A DNA stretch of 26,929 bases from a virus: positions 1-26,929 of IMG/VR virus record IMGVR_UViG_3300035670_001078, one strand, 5' to 3'. Positions 1-16,625 of the stretch are shown here, in pieces. The notes below the pieces were generated by a model. The model had not been told where the DNA came from. It worked only from the letters and a program-made list of their open reading frames with translations, and did no database searches. The translations under genes and the position numbers were made by a program. The number at the start of each line of letters is the position of its first letter. Position 1 is the stretch's first letter.

Positions 1-500
1 AGCACCTTTCTAATCTGGATATTGACGATGATGATAAGCTGTATATTGCAGAGCTAATCTCAGACTTTGATACGTTGCTAACGGCTAAGAAGCCATATGT
101 AGCCAATCTACTTCCGAAGATTTACCACGCTCAAATTCATGGATTGATTAAAGATGGTCCCAAGCTATATGCGGATTTTGTCGAGCCAATTCGTGAGGTA
201 TTTTTCACCTTTGGTATTCGGATTCTCTCTAACGTTCAGAGTGGCTTGATTTATAATCCAGCTAATGAGATTGAACGTTTGCGTCGGGAAGTTGAGCAGG
301 AGATTGCCAATATCGACAGGAGTGGGAATGAACGTTCCAAGATCCTTTTGCAAAAGGAGTTGAGTCGTTTGGGAGCTATTGGTAATGTCAGCAGTTCCAT
401 TGAAGGAGTGGTGTTTAGCTATAACGGCTCAACTTATAAGCTAACTGGTTCTTTTGCTCCTGTTAATCAGATTTTGGGGATTGGTAGATACGGACGTTAA
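1..500 (+). CDS. C-terminal part of a phage protein of unknown function (5' end outside window)
   Basis: The reading frame is open from base 3 and ends in TAA at 498-500, so about 165 codons of the C-terminal part are present. A TTG at 75 could be read as a start, but the frame continues upstream of it without a stop, in good coding style (an Asp-rich LDIDDDDK stretch), so this is a truncated gene and not a small ORF. The middle holds a charged helical region (EIERLRREVEQEIANIDRSG). The end carries a compact conserved-looking block, EGVVFSYNG followed by YKLTG and FAPVNQILG. EG-hydrophobic-hydrophobic with a downstream lysine loosely recalls motif IV/V of nucleotidyltransferases such as ligases, but without the N-terminal catalytic lysine motif this is only a weak idea. 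It precedes the baseplate operon by a 48-nt gap and may not belong to it functionally. Confidence 0.75.
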   Translation, partial: HLSNLDIDDDDKLYIAELISDFDTLLTAKKPYVANLLPKIYHAQIHGLIKDGPKLYADFVEPIREVFFTFGIRILSNVQSGLIYNPANEIERLRREVEQEIANIDRSGNERSKILLQKELSRLGAIGNVSSSIEGVVFSYNGSTYKLTGSFAPVNQILGIGRYGR

Positions 501-2560: not shown

Positions 2561-3028
2561 ATGGCTAGATTATCATTTAAAGATGTTGGTATACAAAATA
2601 CCGTTGAAAATACGATAACGAGCACTATCGCACCTAAACCAATTGGCATAAAAACTCCACTTGAACTTGACGAAGATCAGTCTATAAACATATTCAAGAT
2701 GCACTATGCGATTACAGATCAAATGGCTGATAACTTGAGAAATCTTATACTGACCAATCATGGAGAAAGACTGGCAATGTATGATTTTGGAGCCAATTTA
2801 AGACCACTTCTTACAGACTTTAGTAATAAAGATAACTTTGATCAAGAAGCTATGAAGCGAATAAAAGGTGCCGCAGCCAAATATATGCCTTTTGTCAATC
2901 TTCTTGGATATGAATCTAAAGTGGATAGAAGAGAGAATGTATATACAGGAATTATTAATATTTTAGTTGCATTTCAAGTTGCAAGTTTTCCAGAACAATT
3001 GATAGAAGTAACATTATTTATAACGTGA
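2561..3028 (+). CDS. Baseplate wedge protein, gp25/gpW-like
   Basis: The 155-aa product belongs by sequence style to the GPW/gp25 family. In contractile injection systems this protein sits on the inner baseplate ring, joins the wedges to the tube and resembles the sheath attachment handle. The key block lies at about residues 58-85: NLRNLILTNHGERLAMYDFG followed by ANLRPLL. It matches the family pattern (leucine-rich helix, T-N-x-G-E-R, then D-F-G-x-x-L/R). A helix (DQEAMKRIKGAAAKYMP) and strands ending in IEVTLFIT follow, as expected. T4 gp25 is 132 aa, so there is a short N-terminal extension of about 35 residues. The start ATG at 2561 has only AAGG at 2556-2559, almost touching the codon. 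The stop lies 4 nt before the gp6-like gene, the usual W-J neighbour. Confidence 0.9.
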   Translation: MARLSFKDVGIQNTVENTITSTIAPKPIGIKTPLELDEDQSINIFKMHYAITDQMADNLRNLILTNHGERLAMYDFGANLRPLLTDFSNKDNFDQEAMKRIKGAAAKYMPFVNLLGYESKVDRRENVYTGIINILVAFQVASFPEQLIEVTLFIT

Positions 3029-3032
3029 TCAT

Positions 3033-4874
3033 ATGGCAGACGATTCAAAAAAACAATTATTAAAGCAAATTAGGCAACGTAGATATCTTAATAAAGATTT
3101 TGATGCATTGCGTAATGATCTATTAGACTACGCCCGTTCATATTTTCCAGATAATATCAGAGATTTTTCTGAAGCCAGTTTGGGAGGTTTGTTATTGGAT
3201 TTCGCTGCATATGTTGGTGACGTGCAAAGCTATTATCTGGATCATCAGTTTCATGAGTCATTTCCAGAAACTTCTGTTGAGCCAAATAACGTAGAGCGTC
3301 ATTTAAGAAAAGCAGGTGTTCCAATCGTTGGTTCTTCTCCGGCAGTAGTAACAGTCACGTTCTATATTAAAGTTCCAACAGATGGAACCAATACAGGAAA
3401 TCCGGATTTATTGTCTTTGCCAATTATAAAAGAAGGAACAATTGTTAGAGCTAAAAACGGTATTGAATTTGAACTGACAGAAAATTTAGATTTCTCTGAA
3501 AAGAATATAGATGGGTCTTTCAAAGCTTCTGTTGTAATAGGAAACACTAATGCCAACAATATTCCACAAAACTATATAATGAGCTTGAATGGATTGTGCA
3601 TATCTGGCAAAAGAACAACGGAAACGTTTACTGTAACAAACTTTATTCCTTTTCGTAATATTCCACTATCAAATCCAAACGTTTCAGATGTTTTAAGAGT
3701 TGTAGATTCTCTTGGTAATGAATATTATGAAGTAGATTCTTTAACACAAGATACGGTATATAAACGTGTAACAAATGCAAGTTATGATCAAAAACTAGTG
3801 CCGGAAAATATTGTTCCAATGCCGGCACCTTATCGATTTGTAAAAAATACAGGATTGCAATCTAGAACCACTACTCTTGTGTTTGGTGGCGGATCTGCTG
3901 CTACCATTAATGATGACGTAATTCCAGATCCTAGTGAGTTTGCATTGCCTTTATATGGTAAACAAACATTTTCTAGATTTACTATTAACCCCGGCAATCT
4001 TTTACAGACTACAACGTTTGGTGTAATCGCTGAAAATGTATCTCTTAATATAACATATCGATATGGCGGTGGACTTAAACATAATATTGAAGCAGAAACA
4101 ATCGATACCGTTACTTCATTGAATATATTTTTTCCAAATAATCCCGTGCCTCAAGTTGCCGCTTTCGTTAGAAATTCTATCGATGTTATTAATCTAGATT
4201 CTGCTTCCGGAGGAGAAGATCCTCCAACAGTTAATGATTTAAAAACTAAAATACCAGCTTTCCTCGGTATGCAAAATAGAATTGTTTCAAAAGAAGATTT
4301 GTTAGCTCGTGTATATACTCTTCCTTCAAACTTTGGTCGTGTGTATCGTGCCGCCATAGAGCCAAATCCAAATAATCCTTTAGCTAGTCAGCTATTCGTT
4401 ATATGCAGAAATCAAAGCAATGAATTGATTATTGCTCCAGATACCCTAAAGAAGAATCTGGCAACTTATCTAAATCAATATCGTTTAATATCTGATGCTA
4501 TCGATATCTTGGACGCTAAAGTTATTAATATCACAGTTAAGTTTTCTATTGCAATTGATCCAACACAAAATAAAGAATTAATTTTGCGTAATGTTCTTCT
4601 TAAGCTTAAGAATTATATGAACATTAAAAATTTCGAAATTAATCAACCTATAGTTTTGAGCGATTTGCAAAATATTATATTCAACATTGATGGTGTTGCT
4701 TCAGTAATAAGCTTAGACGTAGGAAACGTTTATGGAGTAGTAGACGGGCGAGCTTATGCAGATGAACAATATAATATCAAAGCAAATACTAGTCGTGGAA
4801 TGATATTTGGACCACGTGGCTCAATGTTTGAGCTAAAGTATACAGATTACGATCTAATAGGAACAGCGGTTTGA
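3033..4874 (+). CDS. Baseplate wedge protein, gp6/gpJ-like (baseplate J family)
   Basis: The 613-aa product is the likely core wedge protein that forms the inner baseplate ring (T4 gp6, 660 aa; P2 gpJ). The N-terminus has the family signature: YLNKDFDALRNDLLDYARSY at about 18-37, then EASLGGLLLDFAAYVGD and YYLDHQFHESF at about 48-80. The Baseplate_J-type signature is near 404-442: KIPAFLGMQNRIVSKEDLLA, then PSNFGRVYRAAIEPN, corresponding to 'R-I-V-t-x-E-D' and 'p-x-f-G-x-V'. C-terminal alpha/beta segments (INITVKFSIAIDPTQNKELI, then IDGVASVISLDVG) are also typical. It follows the gp25-like gene by 4 nt and has no clear Shine-Dalgarno, which suggests translational coupling. Its stop is 4 nt before the next start. 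Confidence 0.92.
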   Translation: MADDSKKQLLKQIRQRRYLNKDFDALRNDLLDYARSYFPDNIRDFSEASLGGLLLDFAAYVGDVQSYYLDHQFHESFPETSVEPNNVERHLRKAGVPIVGSSPAVVTVTFYIKVPTDGTNTGNPDLLSLPIIKEGTIVRAKNGIEFELTENLDFSEKNIDGSFKASVVIGNTNANNIPQNYIMSLNGLCISGKRTTETFTVTNFIPFRNIPLSNPNVSDVLRVVDSLGNEYYEVDSLTQDTVYKRVTNASYDQKLVPENIVPMPAPYRFVKNTGLQSRTTTLVFGGGSAATINDDVIPDPSEFALPLYGKQTFSRFTINPGNLLQTTTFGVIAENVSLNITYRYGGGLKHNIEAETIDTVTSLNIFFPNNPVPQVAAFVRNSIDVINLDSASGGEDPPTVNDLKTKIPAFLGMQNRIVSKEDLLARVYTLPSNFGRVYRAAIEPNPNNPLASQLFVICRNQSNELIIAPDTLKKNLATYLNQYRLISDAIDILDAKVINITVKFSIAIDPTQNKELILRNVLLKLKNYMNIKNFEINQPIVLSDLQNIIFNIDGVASVISLDVGNVYGVVDGRAYADEQYNIKANTSRGMIFGPRGSMFELKYTDYDLIGTAV

Positions 4875-4878
4875 TATC

Positions 4879-6468
4879 ATGTATAGAATATTAACAGCAA
4901 GCAAAGACACTTATATAACCAACAAATATATTGCTGGTGAACGTTGCACTACATCTAATGTGGGACAAGCCGCCACCCTCGACCTATTCAAGTTATATGA
5001 TGAAACTACTATTATAAGTGCCTCAACTAAACTTACAGGAGTTATTGAACTTACTCGTGGATTGATGCAATTTGATTATGAACCTCTTCAACAAATAACT
5101 GCTTCATTCCTTAATATCAACGACTCAAGCTTTAAGGCTTATCTATCCCTTAAGGACGTGTATGGCGGTCAAACTACCCCTTCAAACTTTTCTATAAGGC
5201 TTATACCGCTTTCTCAAAGTTGGGATGAAGGTAGGGGCTTTGACGTTGTTGGATTTCGTGATTTGGATACAGCAAATTTCCTTACCGCTTCCGTAGTAAC
5301 AGGAGCTCCAAACGTATGGTTTTTGTCTGGAGCAGCAGAGAGCGGTTCTCTTGGCGATCCAAATATTGATATCATCGTTTCTGGTAATTTAGGTGCTGGA
5401 TTACAAGATTTAACGGTCACCCAGCAGTTTGCCCGTGGTGATGAAAATCTTTATATGGACGTAACCACTCTTGTTAGTGCAGCTATAGCAGGTGATTTGC
5501 CAAATTATGGTTGGAGATTGTCTTTTATTGATGCCCAAGAACAAGATAACATAACTCGCTTTGTTAAAAGATTTGGAACTCGTCATGCTAATAATGCCGA
5601 CCTCCATCCACAACTTGTAATCAAATACAATGATCAACTTAGAGACGATATGGGCGACACCCTATTCAACGTTTCCCAGAGCTTGTTTACATTTAATCGT
5701 ATTAATGGCGGATATCAAAACTACTTCTCTGGCAGCACAGAGATAACTGGAGCTAATAGCTTATTAATAAATCTATATGGAGCCAAATATCTCACATATT
5801 ATACCTCCAGCTTCTCCATATCTCATAGCGCCAGCATTAATCATTTAACCCGCAGTCTTTATTCTATAACCCAGAGCTTCCTTGGTAGCCAGTATCTAAT
5901 TGGTAGCCTTCCACAAACCGGTATTTACTATGCTGATGTTAACTTTAATACAGTAGAGAATACTGTGCTTAAAGACTTCCTTACCGGTTCTACTCCTCAA
6001 GAGTTTACGTATGCATGGACCAGCTTAGATGGCACTCTTACATATGCCGCTGGTAAGACCCTCTACAAGCTCCCACAAGGCTCTATAAGCAACGTAGAGG
6101 AGAAGAACTGGGTAGTCAACATAACCAACCTTAAACAAGAGTATAAGGGCACGGAGCAGGCAAGATTACGTATCTTTGCATTGGATTACAATACGGAACA
6201 GACTGCGAGTAGATTGCCATTACAACCAAAGAGCGTTATATTAGATAACCTTAAATGGAGAATGATTAATGCTTATTCTCGTAAGGTTGTTGTTCCATTT
6301 GATGATGTAGCTACACTTTGCTCTTATGATGCTGAGGGCATGTATTTTGATCTTTGGATGGAGGACTTTGCTCAGGGCGAAGTTTACGAAATAGAGTTAA
6401 TGATTACTTATGGTGGCAAGGATTACTTGATTAGTAATGCTGGATTTAGATTTAAGGTGATGCCATAA
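4879..6468 (+). CDS. Baseplate-associated structural protein with DNRLRE-like N-terminal beta domain
   Basis: The first half of this 529-aa product (residues about 1-255) has the plan of DNRLRE/CBM-like jelly-roll domains: ASKDTYIT near the N-terminus, SWDEGRGFD at about 114-122, then DVTTLVSAAIAGDLPNYGWRL near 195-215. The rest is beta-rich with Ser-rich repeats near 300-345 (YYTSSFSISHSASINH, then SLYSITQSFLGSQYLIGS). No catalytic motif is seen. DNRLRE-like domains are associated with surface carbohydrate recognition, so a role in decorating the wedge or anchoring fibres is plausible but inferred. The gene sits between the gp6-like and the gpI/gp7-like genes. Codon use looks different from its neighbours, with more ACC, GCC, AGC and CGT, which may mean high expression or a separate origin. 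Its stop overlaps the next start by one base (TAATG). Confidence 0.7.
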   Translation: MYRILTASKDTYITNKYIAGERCTTSNVGQAATLDLFKLYDETTIISASTKLTGVIELTRGLMQFDYEPLQQITASFLNINDSSFKAYLSLKDVYGGQTTPSNFSIRLIPLSQSWDEGRGFDVVGFRDLDTANFLTASVVTGAPNVWFLSGAAESGSLGDPNIDIIVSGNLGAGLQDLTVTQQFARGDENLYMDVTTLVSAAIAGDLPNYGWRLSFIDAQEQDNITRFVKRFGTRHANNADLHPQLVIKYNDQLRDDMGDTLFNVSQSLFTFNRINGGYQNYFSGSTEITGANSLLINLYGAKYLTYYTSSFSISHSASINHLTRSLYSITQSFLGSQYLIGSLPQTGIYYADVNFNTVENTVLKDFLTGSTPQEFTYAWTSLDGTLTYAAGKTLYKLPQGSISNVEEKNWVVNITNLKQEYKGTEQARLRIFALDYNTEQTASRLPLQPKSVILDNLKWRMINAYSRKVVVPFDDVATLCSYDAEGMYFDLWMEDFAQGEVYEIELMITYGGKDYLISNAGFRFKVMP

Positions 6469-9400
6469 TGGCCATAAATAATACAAGAAATTTACAGGCT
6501 AATAAACCGGCTCTATTTAAGCCGGTCGTGGTGCGAGCATTTGAAGATCCTGCTGATGCATCTGTAAGTTTCAATTTATATGAAGCCAACGTTATAACAG
6601 ATACTGCAATTGACAGCACTTCATCATTTAAGTATAATCCCCCGGGGACCGGTCTTCGGAGCACTCAGCAATTAAATGTAGACTGGTCAGATTTTGCAAA
6701 TCATACATTTTTTAACTCTGCTCAAGTAAAAGTTAACGTTGCTTTCGATAAGATTCAAAATGGATTTCCATTTGATGGAGATCAAAGAGCAAATGAACTT
6801 TTTTTGGATAAATTAACCGGTTTCGAAAAATATTTGTATGACAATTATCCAAAAAATAAAGGATATTTATTTTTTTCTGGCACTAACGTTAGCTCTGTGC
6901 CTGGGTATGGAACATATGTTACGGTAGTTGATCAAGCAGGTGCGGCATATACCGATATATCAACAAGGCTCGATGGACAAAATATTATTAATCCAATGTT
7001 AAATCCTATGACTTTTGAGTATTGGATTTATCTTCCAACTATATCAAATACTGATCAAGTTGTTATCGATAAGCATAGTGGTTCACTTGGATTTACTTCT
7101 GCTATTAATGCAAACGTTTCTATAACCACCGCCACAAATACGCTATATATATATTCCGGTTCTGCATATGAACAACTTTCTGTTCCTTTAACAAAGGGCG
7201 AATGGACTCATATAGCTTGGGTATGGAATAGAACACCAGGTTATTATGGGATTACTTCTTATGTTAATGGGGAGTTATATAACTCATCTAGTGCCGGTGT
7301 TGAGTTTGACGTTTTAAATGTTCCATATAATCTTTACATAGGTTCTGGCAGTTCTATTCCCTTAGTTGGATTTACTCCGACCAACACTCTATCTGGCGCT
7401 TTGGATGAACTAAGAATATGGCATAGCATACGTTCTGCTGATCAAATCTATGATAACTATCAAAAATCATTATTTGCAGATTCAAACTTAAAGCTTTACT
7501 ATAAGTTTAATGAGCCCTCCGGAAGCAATTCTGGAATTGTTATTGATGCTTCTTCAAATGGTTTGCATGGAAATTTAAGTGCGAATGCACTAACGTTAAA
7601 AGTAAGAAATTTTCCTACTTCTTCTATAGCTGGGTCAGATCCTGTAACTTATGAAAATTTAAATTTGTGCCCGATATTGTTTGCAAATCATCCAGATGTT
7701 TATACGTATAGAACCAATTTTTATACTAGTGCTAGCATCTATGATAATGAAAATCCAAATATTGTTACAAAGCTGGTTCCAAGACATTATTTCTTAGAAG
7801 GACAGGTAGAAGATGCTTTAGAAACAGAAGAAGGAGCTATTGTTAATACTCTTAATTCTGGAGATGACCCACGTTCGACAAAACTAGGAGACAGTCAAGT
7901 ATTATTGCTGTTCTTATATACTTGGGCCAAGTTTTTCGATGAAATAAAGCTTTATACTCAGCAATTTGTTGACAATCAATTTGTTGACTATGATAACATC
8001 GATACCGTGCCAGATCAGTTCTTGCAACAATTAGCAAGAAATCAAGGAATTGAATTGCCTCCAATGTTTACAGGGGCATCTGTAGCTCAATTTATAAATG
8101 CACTTAATATTCAAGACAATCCAAGTTTAAATCAATTATCACTTCAACAGGTTCAGAATCAAATCTGGAGAAGGATATTAGTTAATCTTCGTGAAATTGT
8201 TACTTCTAAAGGAACAATACACGGCATAAAAACGTTTATTCGTGCAACTGGAATTGACCCAGACAACAACTTCCGTATTAGAGAATACGGTGGTCCAACA
8301 AAACAGAATTTAGATTTTGTTAGAGATACGAGAAATGAAATATCGACTATGTTGACTTTTGATTTGGGCGGCGAAGTAAGAAGTCCATTCTTGTCTGCTA
8401 GCAGAATAGAACCTGGATATCCAGAAATGGCTGGAACTCCCTCTGATGGTTTGTTAACATCTGGTTCTTGGACATATGAAGCAACATATCGATATCCAAT
8501 TAATAATAATTACAACACTTATCAAAGCTTAGTTAGATTTGTTGGAACAGGCAGCCTGTTGGCTAATGATGATCTGGTATATACTAACTTAGTTGCTTAT
8601 TCTGGAAGTAGAACTTATACTACTGTAACTACAAGTTCTCTTACTTTATATGTTCGTTCAAATGCAAACACGACTGCTCCTTATACTGCATTAACTTTGT
8701 CCGGAGTTAATATATTTGATGGTGATAAATGGTATATTAGCTTCGGCAAAAGAAGAAATGATGATGGGCTGGACTCGGTAATATCAAGTTCATATTTCTT
8801 AAGAGCCGCTAAAAACATATATGGAGATATCTTTGAGAATTATGTCACTCAATCATGGTTTAATGATTATGAGGGTGGGGTCACTAATATATGGAATACT
8901 CTATCAGCAACAGGAAATGCTAGTGGTTCCTTGTTTATGATTGGTTCAAGTTCTATCGATACAACTATAAACAATTTCTTAAACAATAACTCTCTACCTG
9001 CGCCCACAAAAGAAACAATATTTCAAGGTTCTGTATCTCAAATACGTTTCTGGAACAAATATATTAGCGATGTAGAATATCCGGAACACGTTAAAAATTT
9101 CAAATCCATAGGTGTTCAAGATCCGCTTACAAAATTTAACTTTGTTACTTATAAGTCTGGCTCATGGGAAAGATTACGTATTGACGCCAGCACAGATCAA
9201 ATCGTAACGCAATCAAGTCCAGGCGGACAAATTGATATCTTTGATTTCTCACAAAATAATTTCCATCTTTCTGGAACTTCTTTCCCGCAAGCCGCTCAAG
9301 TTATCGACCCAGAAAGATATTATTACAGCTTTATATCTCCAAAGTTTGATGAAGCAAATACAACTAACAAAGTAAGAATTCGATCATTTGAACAATATGA

Positions 9401-9899
9401 GAACGTTGTTGCTACTCCTTGGGCGCAAGTAGCCCCTGTATATGAAATACGCAGAAGTGAACAACCAACGGATAGCACCAAGTTTAGCATTGAATACAGC
9501 GTTGTTGAAGCTCTTAATCAGGACATTATTAATATATTCTCAACTTTAGATGAACTTGATAATGCATTAGGTGCTCCGGAGTTAGTATTCTCTCCAGATT
9601 ATCCGGATTTAGAAAGTTTAAGAAACGTATACTTTAATCGTCTTACGGATAAGATTAATCTTAAACAATTCTTTGAGTTTTATAAGTGGTTTGATACAAA
9701 CATCGGAACTTTTGTCTCTCAATTAATACCAAAGAAAACCAAATATTTTGGAACCAACTTCATAATAGAAAGTCATATGTTGGAACGTCCGAAGTTTGAA
9801 TATTTGTTTAGCGAACTTTATTTGGGCGATAGCAATAGGACCGGGCTAAGAGATAGAATTTTGTTACAACTATTAGTTGGAACATTTGCAAAATATTGA
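6468..9899 (+). CDS. Large baseplate wedge protein: gpI/gp7-like region flanked by two LamG-like domains
   Basis: In this 1143-aa product, residues about 160-375 are a LamG/concanavalin A-like sandwich: TFEYWIYLP, GEWTHIAWVWN, SYVNGELYNSS, GALDELRIWHSIRS, LKLYYKFNEPSG. Residues about 478-600 are helical and resemble P2 tail protein I: LYTWAKFFDEIKLYTQQFVD, DQFLQQLARNQGIELP, IWRRILVNLREIVTSKGTIH, GIKTFIRATGID, then IREYGGP. The KGT-x-x-G and E-Y-G-G signatures are the strongest. Residues about 660-885 form a second LamG-like domain (GSWTYEATYRYP, then SQIRFWNKYISDVEYPEHVK). T4 gp7 (1032 aa) is the structural counterpart of gpI in the (gp6)2-gp7 wedge, so this is likely the third wedge subunit. 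It comes after gp25- and gp6-like genes as in P2 V-W-J-I. A good Shine-Dalgarno (AAGGTGA, 6454-6460) precedes the start, which overlaps the previous stop by one base. Confidence 0.8.
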   Translation: MAINNTRNLQANKPALFKPVVVRAFEDPADASVSFNLYEANVITDTAIDSTSSFKYNPPGTGLRSTQQLNVDWSDFANHTFFNSAQVKVNVAFDKIQNGFPFDGDQRANELFLDKLTGFEKYLYDNYPKNKGYLFFSGTNVSSVPGYGTYVTVVDQAGAAYTDISTRLDGQNIINPMLNPMTFEYWIYLPTISNTDQVVIDKHSGSLGFTSAINANVSITTATNTLYIYSGSAYEQLSVPLTKGEWTHIAWVWNRTPGYYGITSYVNGELYNSSSAGVEFDVLNVPYNLYIGSGSSIPLVGFTPTNTLSGALDELRIWHSIRSADQIYDNYQKSLFADSNLKLYYKFNEPSGSNSGIVIDASSNGLHGNLSANALTLKVRNFPTSSIAGSDPVTYENLNLCPILFANHPDVYTYRTNFYTSASIYDNENPNIVTKLVPRHYFLEGQVEDALETEEGAIVNTLNSGDDPRSTKLGDSQVLLLFLYTWAKFFDEIKLYTQQFVDNQFVDYDNIDTVPDQFLQQLARNQGIELPPMFTGASVAQFINALNIQDNPSLNQLSLQQVQNQIWRRILVNLREIVTSKGTIHGIKTFIRATGIDPDNNFRIREYGGPTKQNLDFVRDTRNEISTMLTFDLGGEVRSPFLSASRIEPGYPEMAGTPSDGLLTSGSWTYEATYRYPINNNYNTYQSLVRFVGTGSLLANDDLVYTNLVAYSGSRTYTTVTTSSLTLYVRSNANTTAPYTALTLSGVNIFDGDKWYISFGKRRNDDGLDSVISSSYFLRAAKNIYGDIFENYVTQSWFNDYEGGVTNIWNTLSATGNASGSLFMIGSSSIDTTINNFLNNNSLPAPTKETIFQGSVSQIRFWNKYISDVEYPEHVKNFKSIGVQDPLTKFNFVTYKSGSWERLRIDASTDQIVTQSSPGGQIDIFDFSQNNFHLSGTSFPQAAQVIDPERYYYSFISPKFDEANTTNKVRIRSFEQYENVVATPWAQVAPVYEIRRSEQPTDSTKFSIEYSVVEALNQDIINIFSTLDELDNALGAPELVFSPDYPDLESLRNVYFNRLTDKINLKQFFEFYKWFDTNIGTFVSQLIPKKTKYFGTNFIIESHMLERPKFEYLFSELYLGDSNRTGLRDRILLQLLVGTFAKY

Positions 9900-9926: not shown

Positions 9927-10880
9927 ATGACTATGACTGCATATTCTGAAACAGAAAGCCTAATTGGCACAGAATTCTCTCCATATGACGATAGCACAGC
10001 AGGATATCCTGCCGCTACACGTATTGGTTCATATCCAGAAGATGTAATAGCTATCTTTAATCAATCTGGTTCTGGAATGGATACTTCCGCCTTTGATAAG
10101 TTTAGGCAGGGCGTTGAAATGAGATTGCCAAGACACGTATATGGTAGCACTCAACCAAAGCTTTGGGCTGGTAATCTTTTACAAATACCAAGAACATATT
10201 TGCCATATGGTGAAGCTAGAACTTGGACCGAATATGAAAATACTACTGAATATTATGACAATATAATACCATTCAATCCAGTTCAATATATACAGTCACA
10301 AAACAACAACATAAACACGTATCCGTTTCCAATCTATTTCAATGATGGTCCACAAGAGGGACAAGAAGCTATTATGGAACCTCTTACGATTCCATTTAGA
10401 GCAGCTACATCATATGTCGAAGGTGCTTTCCCAGCTCGTAGACCAAAAGGAAATCTTGAAGATGGAAATCCAACTTCAGATATTCCACAATCAAATAACA
10501 GAGTATTTCAGTTTATAGAATACAATTCTCCACTAACTGCTAATCCATATCTAGACGCTGGACAAGAATACATTGGGGCTGGTTCTATAGAAGATGCTAT
10601 TATAAGAGAAGGTTACGTTGATTTCATTTTAAGACTTGGCGATCCATTTGATGACACCGAAACTGAAGTTATTGTTAAAGAATTGCAGTTTAATACGGGT
10701 TCAGTAGGTGGTCAAGCATTTGAAGCAGCCTTATTAAATTTAGATATTGGTTTAGACGACGACATAAGAGGAAGTTATACTCAAAAATCAGCAACAGCAG
10801 GTTATACTGTGTATGGACCTGATCAGGGAAGATATGGAACTGATAGTATTGCATATATGGGATGGAGCAGAGGATCATGA
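9927..10880 (+). CDS. Virion structural protein of unknown function in the baseplate/fibre cluster
   Basis: This 317-aa product is not recognised. It is rich in Tyr, Pro, Asn and Glu/Asp, acidic and without a membrane segment or signal peptide. An extended, loop-rich stretch runs from about 60 to 190 (RLPRHVYGSTQPKLWAGNLL, then PRTYLPYGEARTWTEYENTT), including a motif rich in aromatic residues. A later piece, FILRLGDPFDDTETEVIVKE, looks like beta structure, and the end is Gly/Tyr-rich. Such composition fits an extended connector that lies along other baseplate proteins. The start is ATG 9927; a second in-frame ATG at 9933 would also do and would place the upstream TATATCTATAC element 7 nt away. 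Neither has a Shine-Dalgarno. The stop overlaps the next start (ATGA at 10877-10880), pointing to translational coupling with the LamG protein downstream. Confidence 0.7.
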   Translation: MTMTAYSETESLIGTEFSPYDDSTAGYPAATRIGSYPEDVIAIFNQSGSGMDTSAFDKFRQGVEMRLPRHVYGSTQPKLWAGNLLQIPRTYLPYGEARTWTEYENTTEYYDNIIPFNPVQYIQSQNNNINTYPFPIYFNDGPQEGQEAIMEPLTIPFRAATSYVEGAFPARRPKGNLEDGNPTSDIPQSNNRVFQFIEYNSPLTANPYLDAGQEYIGAGSIEDAIIREGYVDFILRLGDPFDDTETEVIVKELQFNTGSVGGQAFEAALLNLDIGLDDDIRGSYTQKSATAGYTVYGPDQGRYGTDSIAYMGWSRGS

Positions 10881-13744
10881 GTAGACAAGAGAAAAGAACT
10901 AGAATAAGAGTAGTTCCTCCAAAGCTACAATTACGTGGCCAGGATGCTCTTACAGGCTCTTATCCAACCAATGTGCGCTTCTCATTAGATGGACGCTCAG
11001 GCAACTATAAAGTCGGTTATAACGATGTTCAGACGGTTGTATTTGGCACTCGTTCAAATGGAACATCATGGCAAGACAGTATGATTGGATATTGGACTAT
11101 GCAAAGACTGGGCCCAAGTGCTGGTGCGTCGGGCAGCATTACTTTTGAAGCAGAATTATCCGGCTCTATTAAAGAAGGACTATTTCCATATCTAGATTTT
11201 AATTTAGCCGATGATCCTTCAACAAATTTTAAATTTATTGGAGTTAGTCAATCTTTTTCACATTATGGAAAGGCTTATAATGTAGATATCGATAAAGCAA
11301 TTCCAACAGCCGGAACAACTGCAAATATTGAATTTCCATATATACAGCCAAATAAATCATATGATTATAGACCAAATTTCAGTCCATATGGAATTATTTA
11401 CGAACCATCATCTGCCATTACAAGTGTGACCCCATTATTAGCTCAAAATATGGACACAGATAAAAGTCTATTTGAGTTTGCGGATCTAATAGTTCCAACT
11501 CCTGGTAAAATAGTCTATGAAAGCTTTACTTTTGCAGGTTGGTTTTACTATAATCATGATGTTAGTAACGTTGTTAATGGAATGTATTTGATTGCCGGTC
11601 CATGTAGAAAAAGTCCATGGAATATTGACAATCTAGATTATGTTGCTTCTGTTACTGAGAATTTTACCGCTAATGCATTGGATTTTTCTATTTCATTTTT
11701 AAGTGGTAGCGCAGCAAATAGAATGACACTAAACACAGTTGCAGTTCCAAATTTAGTTGATACTTGGTTTCATTTTGCTTTTAGTTTTGATGGAAAAACT
11801 TCTGGAGTTCCAGCAACCTCAGATTCAATAAAAGTTTATATCAATGGAGAAAGAGTAGCCGCTTCATCTTTCAGCTCTTTTGGAGCCGGATTTGATTCAT
11901 ACGATACAGATACCGCAATACAATATGGAATTTCTTCTGGCTATTCATTCGCAAAAAACTCATCAGTAACCGGCTCTGTTGGAGAAATTTCGTTTTTCAA
12001 TAGAGAGTTAAATTCTGATGAAATAAAAGATATATATTATTCTCAAGTTCCATGGAATAAGAAACGTCGTGTAATAGCTGGAACATCTATAGACCTTGAT
12101 AATGACCCATATCCAGTAGATGCTGGAGAATACATGACCACGTTTAATAGAGATGGCATGTTAGTTACCGGCTCTATTGTAAAGGGAGTTGGAGATAGCT
12201 CAGAGTGGGTTCATTTCTCTCCTGGGCAAGAGATGCAACCATTCCATGATCAACAACAGTTTGCTGCTGATGCTAAGGGAGCCCCTGTTCAAAATCCTTT
12301 CTTTGCTACAGGTAGTGCAGAGACTTTAGTTGGTGAAGGATTTAACAGTCCTCTTTGGAGCAAAAACAAGATTGAAATACCAATACCGGTTGCATCAAAT
12401 ACGGTATTAAAATTACCAGAGGGAAAAATAGGTGCGGGATTGGAGGGCAGTTACGATTCTCCGATGGCCTACTATAACTTTGATAAAAACGTTTGGGAAC
12501 CAATAGGAATTGGAATAAAAATTAATTCATCTGACCTTACAGATTGTCAAGATTATTTGACCGTTGGTTTCTTTGATGGGTATCTAATGACGCAATCCAT
12601 TGATACAGCGTTAGGGAATTTGAACATTAATGGTTTACATACTATGGGATATTGCGGAAGTGACTTTGGTTTTCCATATCATCCAAAATATCATGCAACT
12701 AGTTCACAAACTCTAGATATGAGCCAATATATCACAGAGCCTTTTCTCTTGGAAAAAGCTGTATTAAACATGGGACCATATAGCTTTGTAGTTGGGACAG
12801 TAGACCTAACGACCATTACTAGCGTTGTAACAGGCTCAATCACAACATTTTTCTTATTAAATCAGAGAAGAAATCAAAACATAAATTATTTCAAACGTCA
12901 GGCGGCATTCGTAAATGGAGTTTTAACGACAGTTTCTGTATCTGCACACGTGCCAGCCGATACTGTTTTAACTTATGATGATGCGTTAGCGTCTCCTCCT
13001 ATAACAACACGTGTAGATACGCTAAGAGATATCCTAGGTTTTTCTCAAGTGTATTCATTTGCAAAAGATGTATTAAATACGGTGGTAAAAAGAGGCGCTT
13101 TTTCAATAGTGAGTGCTGTTACTAGTTCAATTAATGATCTAATACCGGTAACCAGTAATGACATTCTTATTGAAACAAAAAATGCGGGTATTAGTGGTGC
13201 TAATTATAATATAACTCCAACGTTTTCAATGAGCATGGGGACACCACCCGGTCTTTTTAATGATTTTCAAAACATTGGTTTGACTAATCTCATGACCAAA
13301 TATATTCCTGGATCTCCAGCAGTATTTGATACCATTTATATATCATTTGATGGTTCTAGGACCGGCATTAATGTTACGCAACTTTCAACACGTGGACTTA
13401 ACAATGATCTTTTTCATTCTGAGGATATAGATAATAGTCTTGTGCCGGGACCAGAATGGCCAAAAGATAAATGGAAACAAAATCCTTATATATTATATCC
13501 GCAAGATAAACTAATATTAGGTTGTCAGGCACCTGTATCAATAGCGCCAGCATTTAGAACTATATATGATATCGCTCTTGGAGCCACTAATGCTGAATGT
13601 GTGTTAACATTGCTAGCTAGTTCTAATTTTCTAGTTGAGCCAAAATTAATTCTATATGGTTCTTATATCAGAGAAAATAGAGAATATAATGATGGAACCA
13701 ATCAACTTTTGTCATCAGAAACAATTCACGAGGTCATAGAATAA
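10877..13744 (+). CDS. LamG-domain tail/baseplate protein, probable fibre or adhesin component
   Basis: The 955-aa product carries one clear LamG/concanavalin A-like domain at residues about 212-390: SFTFAGWFYYNHD, DTWFHFAFSFDGKT, IKVYINGERVAASSF, GSVGEISFFNRELNSDEIKD. Such domains often bind glycans, so surface binding is plausible. The remaining roughly 560 residues are beta-rich and not recognised. The N-terminus is basic (SRQEKRTRIRVVPPKLQLRG), perhaps a docking peptide. I chose ATG 10877 and not the upstream ATG at 10862. The 10877 codon forms an ATGA overlap with the previous stop and has AGAGGA at 10869-10874 as Shine-Dalgarno, whereas 10862 lies inside the previous gene without a site and would add only five residues. 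The stop lies 1 nt before the next ATG. The LamG recalls those of the 1143-aa protein, suggesting shared use of the module. Confidence 0.72.
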   Translation: MSRQEKRTRIRVVPPKLQLRGQDALTGSYPTNVRFSLDGRSGNYKVGYNDVQTVVFGTRSNGTSWQDSMIGYWTMQRLGPSAGASGSITFEAELSGSIKEGLFPYLDFNLADDPSTNFKFIGVSQSFSHYGKAYNVDIDKAIPTAGTTANIEFPYIQPNKSYDYRPNFSPYGIIYEPSSAITSVTPLLAQNMDTDKSLFEFADLIVPTPGKIVYESFTFAGWFYYNHDVSNVVNGMYLIAGPCRKSPWNIDNLDYVASVTENFTANALDFSISFLSGSAANRMTLNTVAVPNLVDTWFHFAFSFDGKTSGVPATSDSIKVYINGERVAASSFSSFGAGFDSYDTDTAIQYGISSGYSFAKNSSVTGSVGEISFFNRELNSDEIKDIYYSQVPWNKKRRVIAGTSIDLDNDPYPVDAGEYMTTFNRDGMLVTGSIVKGVGDSSEWVHFSPGQEMQPFHDQQQFAADAKGAPVQNPFFATGSAETLVGEGFNSPLWSKNKIEIPIPVASNTVLKLPEGKIGAGLEGSYDSPMAYYNFDKNVWEPIGIGIKINSSDLTDCQDYLTVGFFDGYLMTQSIDTALGNLNINGLHTMGYCGSDFGFPYHPKYHATSSQTLDMSQYITEPFLLEKAVLNMGPYSFVVGTVDLTTITSVVTGSITTFFLLNQRRNQNINYFKRQAAFVNGVLTTVSVSAHVPADTVLTYDDALASPPITTRVDTLRDILGFSQVYSFAKDVLNTVVKRGAFSIVSAVTSSINDLIPVTSNDILIETKNAGISGANYNITPTFSMSMGTPPGLFNDFQNIGLTNLMTKYIPGSPAVFDTIYISFDGSRTGINVTQLSTRGLNNDLFHSEDIDNSLVPGPEWPKDKWKQNPYILYPQDKLILGCQAPVSIAPAFRTIYDIALGATNAECVLTLLASSNFLVEPKLILYGSYIRENREYNDGTNQLLSSETIHEVIE

Positions 13745-13745
13745 T

Positions 13746-16625
13746 ATGCCTATCTTTGATCAATTTGAAACCGAACCTTATGCAACCTATTCTGGGTCAT
13801 ATACGGATAACTACATATATGGCTCTATATTCAATTCTTCTCCGGCATATAGTAGAGAAGTTATTGCCCTTAAAACAACTGGAATTGTCAGCTCCTCTTT
13901 TTATTCCAAAGACCTAAGCCGCTCAGATCAGTTGGGATATACAGAAGGAAATTATATATCCTCAAAAACCCAAAACATACTCAATAAGTTTTTTGATATA
14001 TCAGAATATATCTTTGATTCAATTATTCCTTCTCCGATTGGTATTGGAAATGTAGACAATACTTTAAATCCATACCTACAAACCACTTCTAGTTGGAAAC
14101 AAATATTTTCGGCTAGCTTAAGCGGCTCTAGTAACTTAGGTCGGTCTGCTTTAACGGACAATTCTTTTCATACCTTTTTTCCTGCGCAGGTTAAGGAAAT
14201 ACCAGCCGGCTCTGGTGATACCCTATCAATTCCGGACATTAATAACTTTACAAACAACAAATGGTTAAACAATTTCCCATTTCAATCTAGATATAGACAA
14301 TTAAGAAGGTTTCTAGGTGTTGGATTAGATAACACTTCAATAGAAGTTGACATATATTCAGGAAGCTTTGTTTCTCCTGTAATTACAACTAAAGAGCTCG
14401 GTTCTCTATTTTATGTGTATGGAGATGCCAGCTATAGGGTCTATACCAGATATTCTCAATTTTGGGTGGGACTTGGATTAAAAAATGATATACAACATGT
14501 TCATATACCAACTAGATTTTTCAATCCAATACAAAAGATTTGTTTCACAAATTATAGCGGTTCTCAAAATTCTTGTTATGTAGCTTTTGGAGACAATGGA
14601 ACGATATTGACTAGTTCTTTAGGATATCCAGATACATGGGAGCCTATATGTTTTGGTAGAGATGGATATAATGCTGGAGAGGGTATAGCCTCCGTAAATG
14701 AAATTGAAATCGATTCTTGGCCTTTTGTTACCAATTCCATTAGAGATGCTTTGGCTCTTGGATATTCGCCTTCTGGAAAAGATGGGTGCCATTGGCAATG
14801 GCTTTTAGTCGTGGAAGATATTAATAGACGTGGTAAAATAGTAAGAACAAAACCTGGTCTTCAAGGCAATGCTGACTATAAAATTCCCACCAAAAACCAA
14901 TGGGAATATGTTAATTTAGATGCATCTATTAATTTTTCTGATCCAGTTGATATACATTCTATATGTAGCGTCAATCCTGGAGGCATATCAGATTCTGGAT
15001 ATGAACTTTATGCTGGAGTATTTGCTGTTGGTAGAATTCTTGACGGTGGATTTGGTTCTGGTTTAGTAGCATATGTTGAAAAACCGGAGGCTCCTAGTTG
15101 TGTTGATACGGAATGGAACCGGTTTACACAGCCAGAAGTAACAGCGCCGGATGATGTATTTCTTTCTGTGACGGCTAATAAATTTTTTGATTCAAAACCT
15201 CGTATTTGGACCTGCGGATATACAAAAGGTTCGCCAGATGTTGGGAAAATTATATCTGGGTCGCAAGATGTTGGGGTTCCTAATTGGAAAGATGTTACTC
15301 CGACTGCTCTTTTTGCTCCGGGCCCAGTTCCTGTTTTACGTTCTATAGCATATAACGTTACAAGTGGTTCAGCCGCCGATCTTTCGTCCGGTTTAGTTTG
15401 CGTTGGAGATAATGGAACAATATTGTATTCATCAGATGGTGGAGAAAATTGGAGTAAAAGAACTCCTGCAAATAGCTATACGGGAAGTTTCGTAGAAATA
15501 AAAAAGGCTTATAGCCTAAACAGCAATAATCCTATTGATTTAACTAATGTGGCATGGATTGCAATCGGAGATGACGGAGAAATACAATTTAGTCAAAATG
15601 GTAATGCTTTAAATTGGTATAGTTTTAGAACAGGAAAACCAGCACCGGGGGCCATTCAAGCTTCAATTGATTATCCTAACCGTTTATATCCTTCTGCTAG
15701 TTTAGGGCGTTCAGTTGGAACAGATCCAAGTTGGAAGAATTTTTCTTATACTTTGCAAAATAGTTCTTTTAGGAGTTACTATGCAGGTTCAGTAGAAAGA
15801 ACATTGGTTACAACCAATGCAAATATTATTAAACCACTATATACAATGGCTGCGGGAGGACTTTCAATACATGATTTTAATAAACAAATTCAAGGAGAAA
15901 CAATAGGTTCAAGCAATACTTTGTTGGTGTGCAGAGTTGCAGATGTTTCATCAAGTATTAAATTTGGGTTTGAATTCGGTAATTCTAATGGTTACGAGAA
16001 ATATGGATTTTTACCACAATTAGAAATTAATAACTTTTATGAGCCAAGAAGGCCAAATGCTATATGGATAAAGCCAACAAATAACGATTATAATAAAGCA
16101 TTTTTTGGTTATGGAGAAGGCTTCGCTCTAGATTTAACCGACTGGCAATATGGGGCGCCTTTACAGGTTGGGAAAAAAGGAAAAACAGCCAATTTCTTAG
16201 ATTGGAGCCCATATGATGTTTATTATAGCGGAAGCAATATTGACATTCCTCAGTTTAACCTTTATAATCCAGAAATACGTGGATGGAAATATGGATTATA
16301 TAGTGCGATTAACACAACAACTTCGGCAATCTGGCGCAGAGGCAGATATGGACAATTCCGAGATATGTTAGAGCAGAGATTATTCACAAGATATCTCCAG
16401 ACTGAAACTGTTAATCCATATGCAAATATTAAATTAAATCAAAAATTAAGACAAACAGTAGATGGACCAATACAAGTTAGGTTTATATCTTCAAGTGCAA
16501 TATATTCAGCATCTGTTGATTATGTGACTGCAACAAATCCAACATATAATCCTTATGATAGTGGTATTTATGACATATACTATCGGAGTGGTCAACCATT
16601 CTTTGATAGACCAAATGAGGATTGA
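13746..16625 (+). CDS. Asp-box (BNR) repeat tail protein, probable beta-propeller fibre component
   Basis: The 959-aa product contains motifs of Asp-box/BNR propellers as seen in sialidases and Ycf48-like proteins. The clearest is GLVCVGDNGTILYSSDGGENW at about 548-568, with the S-x-D-x-G-x-x-W core. A related blade is WIAIGDDGEIQFSQNGNALN near 603-622, and a degenerate one, CYVAFGDNGTILTSS, lies near 278-292. No sialidase Arg triad or FRIP motif is evident, so I infer structural or binding use, not hydrolysis. The N-terminus is Tyr/Ser/Gly-rich (ATYSGSYTDNYIYGSIF) and the C-terminus ends in Tyr-rich extended sequence. GAGGT at 13730-13734 is a distant Shine-Dalgarno (11 nt). The gene lies between the LamG protein and a repeated-family virion protein, whose start is 2 nt downstream of this stop. 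It may be a receptor-binding protein or part of the fibre shell. Confidence 0.7.
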   Translation: MPIFDQFETEPYATYSGSYTDNYIYGSIFNSSPAYSREVIALKTTGIVSSSFYSKDLSRSDQLGYTEGNYISSKTQNILNKFFDISEYIFDSIIPSPIGIGNVDNTLNPYLQTTSSWKQIFSASLSGSSNLGRSALTDNSFHTFFPAQVKEIPAGSGDTLSIPDINNFTNNKWLNNFPFQSRYRQLRRFLGVGLDNTSIEVDIYSGSFVSPVITTKELGSLFYVYGDASYRVYTRYSQFWVGLGLKNDIQHVHIPTRFFNPIQKICFTNYSGSQNSCYVAFGDNGTILTSSLGYPDTWEPICFGRDGYNAGEGIASVNEIEIDSWPFVTNSIRDALALGYSPSGKDGCHWQWLLVVEDINRRGKIVRTKPGLQGNADYKIPTKNQWEYVNLDASINFSDPVDIHSICSVNPGGISDSGYELYAGVFAVGRILDGGFGSGLVAYVEKPEAPSCVDTEWNRFTQPEVTAPDDVFLSVTANKFFDSKPRIWTCGYTKGSPDVGKIISGSQDVGVPNWKDVTPTALFAPGPVPVLRSIAYNVTSGSAADLSSGLVCVGDNGTILYSSDGGENWSKRTPANSYTGSFVEIKKAYSLNSNNPIDLTNVAWIAIGDDGEIQFSQNGNALNWYSFRTGKPAPGAIQASIDYPNRLYPSASLGRSVGTDPSWKNFSYTLQNSSFRSYYAGSVERTLVTTNANIIKPLYTMAAGGLSIHDFNKQIQGETIGSSNTLLVCRVADVSSSIKFGFEFGNSNGYEKYGFLPQLEINNFYEPRRPNAIWIKPTNNDYNKAFFGYGEGFALDLTDWQYGAPLQVGKKGKTANFLDWSPYDVYYSGSNIDIPQFNLYNPEIRGWKYGLYSAINTTTSAIWRRGRYGQFRDMLEQRLFTRYLQTETVNPYANIKLNQKLRQTVDGPIQVRFISSSAIYSASVDYVTATNPTYNPYDSGIYDIYYRSGQPFFDRPNED

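Follow-up and report, generated by a model that had tools for sequence, protein, structure and literature searches.

The locus described here raises the question of whether a core subunit of a phage baseplate can itself sense the host surface. The window, meaning the whole stretch of DNA analysed, is a linear virus fragment of 26.9 kb from IMG/VR, and its long genes all lie on the plus strand. A sequence-only reading had placed LamG-like sandwiches on both sides of a helical region in the product of ORF 6468-9899, and had proposed that receptor sensing resides there, on the part that triggers sheath contraction, instead of on a separate fibre. Overall, we find the observation sound and the family correct, and the functional reading over-reaching. 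The genes of the locus are as follows.

549-2270, + strand: gpV/spike-like gene, labelled from position only
2561-3028, + strand: gp25/gpW-like wedge protein, with a weak PHROG match; syntenic in 99/99 loci
3033-4874, + strand: gp6/gpJ-like wedge protein (PHROG 219, E 6.5e-14; Pfam Baseplate_J above cut-off)
4879-6468, + strand: gene X (529 aa), flanked by gp6 and gp7 without exception and repeatedly swapped as a single gene
6468-9899, + strand: gpI/gp7-like baseplate wedge protein, 1143 aa, so labelled from its motifs, gpI profile match and gene order
10862-13744, + strand: 960-aa protein with its own Laminin_G_3 at residues 221-389, the LamG-bearing part variable among relatives; likely a fibre or adhesin
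13746-16625, + strand: 959-aa propeller-like protein with a weak BNR/YCF48-like signal, its middle (residues 240-720) found in ~6% of gene-keeping relatives; likely an adhesin

ORF 6468-9899 is uninterrupted, and its 1143-aa product carries the helical signature in mid-chain just as first described: KGTIHGI (581-587) is followed by IREYGGP (604-610), and an alignment of 57 sequences shows no variation at K581, G582, T583, E606, G608 and G609. The chain divides into the following parts.

6594-6842, + strand: N-terminal helical segment, residues 43-125, conserved; precedes the putative LamG1 insertion and is partly aligned in the sister clade (A1 profile)
6858-7589, + strand: LamG1, residues ~131-374, with Pfam Laminin_G_3 at 178-327
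7650-8321, + strand: helical core, residues ~395-618, gpI/gp7-like
8208-8216, + strand: KGT motif, residues 581-583, invariant; aligns with the KGT of P2 gpI
8283-8294, + strand: EYGG motif, residues 606-609; E606 is paired with gpI E102, which is near-invariant
8322-9317, + strand: LamG2-like sandwich, residues ~619-950, common to the Mel-JY01 clade
9345-9896, + strand: C-terminal helical segment, residues 960-1143 (960-1110 conserved), modelled with low confidence

In one relative (L013, 10001-13436), two ORFs of 425 and 709 aa stand in place of a single wedge gene, which may reflect a sequencing error, a frameshift or an insertion.

Judged by profile and predicted structure, LamG1 is certainly a LamG domain. 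Its Laminin_G_3 match in Pfam (E 1e-15) scores 58.6 bits vs a cut-off of 27.6 and recurs in 31 of 34 diverse family members; the AlphaFold model places the sandwich strands at 134-371 with pLDDT ~90, and profile comparison with the PDB matches pentraxins. LamG2 has no Pfam match in the ORF 6468-9899 protein, and its assignment as a LamG-like sandwich is supported by the predicted fold, in which a second sandwich occupies ~619-862 and additional strands extend as far as 956 (pLDDT 60-90 for the most part), and by Foldseek matches to tandem LG structures. Laminin LG4-5 and neurexin L2-L3 align over ~750 columns, a length that we read as covering both sandwiches since the output gives no aligned ranges; the rmsd is large because the relative placement of the sandwiches differs, and the match is best explained if both predicted sandwiches are LG-like. 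Full-chain structure prediction, the check suggested together with the sequence-only reading, returned two sandwiches, and Pfam (for LamG1), the AlphaFold model and Foldseek agree that they flank the helical core. Of the limits proposed from sequence, those of LamG1 (160-375) were about right, except that the true start lies some 30 residues earlier, while those of LamG2 (660-885) fell in the right region but were ~40-65 residues too tight on each side. A profile alignment of LamG1 with LamG2 is co-linear over 205 columns, but at P 0.012 it is too weak to claim LamG1 as a copy of LamG2, and this origin was rejected.

Gene order and profile comparison support the assignment of ORF 6468-9899 to the gpI/gp7-type baseplate wedge proteins. 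The order gp25-gp6-X-gp7, with X as the sole intervening gene, occurs in all 99 loci with enough sequence; P2 and Mu share this wedge gene order without X, and T4 has gp6-gp7, likewise without X. Because a P2 gpI scan of viral contigs gave only near-identical copies, diverse gpI proteins were drawn from whole genomes. In a single hhalign comparison, the 90-sequence profile of the core matched 31 of these gpI proteins at P 2.7e-4, pairing the near-invariant gpI positions P/LLxxLA, R, KGT and E; its score of 33.1 is not reached by any of 120 column shuffles, the highest of which scores 21.7. Against 24,736 Pfam families, the commonest sub-threshold match was Tail_P2_I (52/90 members, best E 0.0012), followed by Gp7_helical (6/90). 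The wedge identity first proposed from the letters thus agrees with the gene order, the gpI profile match and these weak hits. Gp7_5th and Gp7_6th, which correspond to T4 gp7 domains V and VI, matched none of the family members, the T4 gp7 single sequence had no significant match to the family profiles, and PHROGs gave no informative match for the ORF 6468-9899 protein. The isolated core gave a model of moderate quality (pLDDT 71, pTM 0.43) with no gp7/gpI fold match in the PDB; the core may fold fully only within the heterotrimer.

The family is widespread, with 417 IMG/VR relatives confirmed in one scan and at least 568 in a core-only scan, on contigs of up to 324 kb. A one-off curiosity was rejected as an explanation, since hundreds of relatives carry the same architecture. 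Homologous genes are also present in Microcystis phage Mel-JY01, Flavobacterium phage immuto and the huge phage LR756508; the gp7-like proteins of the first two (L082:16271-20281 and L083:15276-19073) stand unannotated as "hypothetical proteins". Bacterial genomes gave only two partial matches, both in MAGs, from which no host was inferred, and no photosystem genes scored above the cut-off in 15 large relatives.

Since the initial searches for relatives relied on LamG1 peptides, which favoured relatives retaining LamG1, domain presence was re-counted on the core-only scan. In the window's clade, counted on the best 80 of at least 568 relatives with exceptions further out possible, sequences of sufficient extent carry LamG1 in 79/79 cases and LamG2 in 78/78, and on this comparison the two-LamG architecture is a fixed trait of the clade. 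The sister (Mel-JY01) clade has LamG2 in 76/76 and LamG1 in 0/79. It is co-linear with the window protein over 404-1125 (P 2e-27), LamG2 included, so LamG2 appears to be the older of the two domains; a segment N-terminal of its core weakly matches the residues before LamG1. The absence of LamG1 from the sister clade points to a single-site insertion, and the best reading is that LamG1 entered once, between about residues 126 and 400, and became fixed in the window's clade, with loss from the sister clade as the formal alternative.

Pairwise comparisons of relatives revealed no pair with a swapped LamG domain. Identity in LamG1 and LamG2 lies ~4-15 points below that of the core in all identity bands, and dN/dS is 0.11-0.12 vs 0.05-0.07 elsewhere, rough values with dS near saturation; tested as exchanged modules, the two domains diverge in step with the core and only moderately faster. 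ORFs 10862-13744 and 13746-16625 have conserved ends and very variable middles (an own LamG and BNR-like repeats, respectively). Among gene-keeping relatives, only 12-24% align with ORF 10862 over the stretch (81-400) that carries its LamG, a coverage partly reflecting limited tblastn sensitivity, and the middle of ORF 13746 aligns in ~6% of relatives retaining that gene; from this variability, the products of both are likely host-range modules.

By sequence comparison, gene X is exchanged as a single gene. It shares 97% protein and 90-96% DNA identity with relative L012, compared with 67% for gp6 and 62% for gp7, the breaks in identity fall near its ends, and in 40 pairs of relatives it stands >15 points above its neighbours. 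Searches of Pfam and the PDB yielded no convincing relative of gene X. The truncated first ORF (window 3-500) has 98% protein identity to L012, the gpV-like and gp6-like proteins lying far below it at 54% and 67% in the same comparison, which reads as a second sign of exchange at the locus. The idea that receptor sensing sits on the wedge protein instead of a separate fibre runs counter to these patterns: LamG1 and LamG2 appear fixed and co-inherited, without module exchange, whereas the exchanged adhesion-like modules sit in ORFs 10862-13744 and 13746-16625 and in gene X.

The explanation that we favour, with modest confidence, is a gpI/gp7-type wedge protein whose fixed LamGs are structural or docking domains, with host choice made elsewhere. 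ORF 6468-9899 would encode a wedge subunit of a contractile-tailed environmental phage, its helical core (395-618) packing with two copies of the gp6-like protein encoded at 3033-4874. LamG2, directly after the core, would belong to the older body of the protein family, and LamG1, to judge from the clade comparison, would have entered a single time, in the clade ancestor, at a site between the core and the N-terminal helices, and been retained since. Going by the gp7-like part of AlgoCIS Alg12, both most likely lie on an outer arm and would offer structural or docking surfaces to neighbouring wedges or to fibre proteins from downstream genes; several large proteins are encoded downstream of ORF 6468-9899. 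Host choice would fall to the modules exchanged within ORFs 10862 and 13746, perhaps also to gene X, and is argued to lie there because the adhesin-like modules of these two ORFs are exchanged. The gp7-like part of Alg12 is lateral on the baseplate, holds the tail fibres and is an evolutionary hotspot (PMC8894135), which makes docking or structure the simplest reading for fixed gp7 domains.

The permanence of both LamGs in the clade makes them look like structural or docking domains, or binders of a shared target, rather than a host-selecting sensor. The shared-target option weighs against pure docking: sugar binding is frequent among LamG folds, domains that serve a conserved secondary receptor would likewise be fixed, and within the favoured scheme the two LamGs may, as a second role, bind a glycan that all hosts have in common. 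In a rival reading, LamG1, LamG2 or both would form a secondary receptor for a glycan of all hosts (such as the LPS core or a widespread capsule sugar) that aids wedge release for contraction, as has been suggested for the pair of carbohydrate-binding modules in the AlgoCIS Alg11 cage; we regard this as possible but tentative. It is encouraged by the lectin homologues of the LamG/pentraxin-like fold, by the wedge-protein precedents of Alg11 CBM1/2 and Vp4 Gp119 (cell binding shown), and by a roughly twofold weaker constraint on LamG1 and LamG2 than on the core, as in exposed domains. However, LamG folds also mediate protein-protein contacts, as in laminin and neurexin, no ligand site has been identified in the candidate LamGs, and the exchange signature is borne by other LamG/propeller proteins of the locus. 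A more specific form, which seems to us rather unlikely, makes the gp7-type arm a fixed second-step glycan sensor: the 10862/13746 fibres would choose the host, and LamG1/LamG2 would then engage a sugar conserved on the surface, pulling the wedge open. If so, the contraction switch would check the surface directly.

Two further readings fit the locus poorly. That ORF 6468-9899 encodes a large peripheral baseplate or fibre protein merely placed after gp6 would account for the missing PDB fold match of the isolated core and for single Pfam matches that all fall below their cut-offs; we consider it improbable given a position after gp25-gp6-X that is invariant in the 99 loci, a gpI profile match far exceeding the shuffles, and the genes of Mel-JY01, immuto and LR756508, which follow gp6 with one or two genes between. 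Least probable, and very much so, are LamG1 and LamG2 as main host-specific receptor sensors that replace separate fibres, as originally proposed. The presence of two lectin-like folds in a core wedge protein invites that view, but the domains are never swapped or lost among the clade members compared, separate adhesin-like genes with strongly exchanged modules lie directly downstream, and the exchanged gene between gp6 and gp7 is the neighbouring X.

The analysis brings to light a large clade of contractile-tailed phages that is hardly annotated, and puts a name on the gp7-like proteins left unannotated in Mel-JY01 and immuto. It also suggests an ordered change of architecture in a central baseplate protein, in which LamG2 came first and a single insertion later added LamG1, which then became fixed. 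The clade that has LamG1 and the one that lacks it form a natural pair for asking whether lectin-like domains on the wedge help to trigger contraction, a question that also applies to AlgoCIS.

Compared with known systems, the protein resembles P2 gpI (Tail_P2_I, PF09684) in its helical core, with the P..LL..LA, R, KGT and E positions aligned, and in following gpW/gp25- and gpJ/gp6-like genes; gpI differs in being a 176-aa protein without inserted sandwiches, and the P2 locus in lacking the extra gene X between the gpJ- and gpI-like genes. T4 gp7 (PDB 5hx2/5iv5) is similar in size (~1000 aa), in having domains on both sides of a helical part and in its place after gp6, and its best local alignment falls, weakly, on the Gp7_helical segment 643-689. 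The sequence match is not significant, however, the window protein is without Pfam domains V and VI, and Pfam reports no LamG in T4 gp7.

Carbohydrate-binding modules on wedge proteins are already known (PMC8894135, PMC13314943, PMC11406892). AlgoCIS Alg11 is likewise a core wedge protein with two putative modules, and a second contact through two CBMs on the wedge cage has been proposed as needed (PMC13314943); unlike the window protein, Alg11 is the gp6-like partner, its CBM1 and CBM2 are consecutive in one insertion and form a cage round the spike, and their reported fold is CBM27-like, not LamG. Gp119 of Bacillus phage Vp4 (baseplate wedge 3) also combines a wedge protein with two CBM folds and binds bacterial cells (PMC11406892), but it is a peripheral, A511 Gp105-like wedge protein, and its CBMs are missing from the close relative Deep-Blue, i.e. 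not fixed. Mel-JY01 WWT39511.1 and immuto QQO92079.1 differ in being without LamG1 and in having their own N-terminal domain of ~240 aa. Both have a homologous core with the KGT/E(F/Y)GG motif (KGT and YGG in immuto), and WWT39511.1 also has LamG2 and the C-terminal part in common with the window protein.
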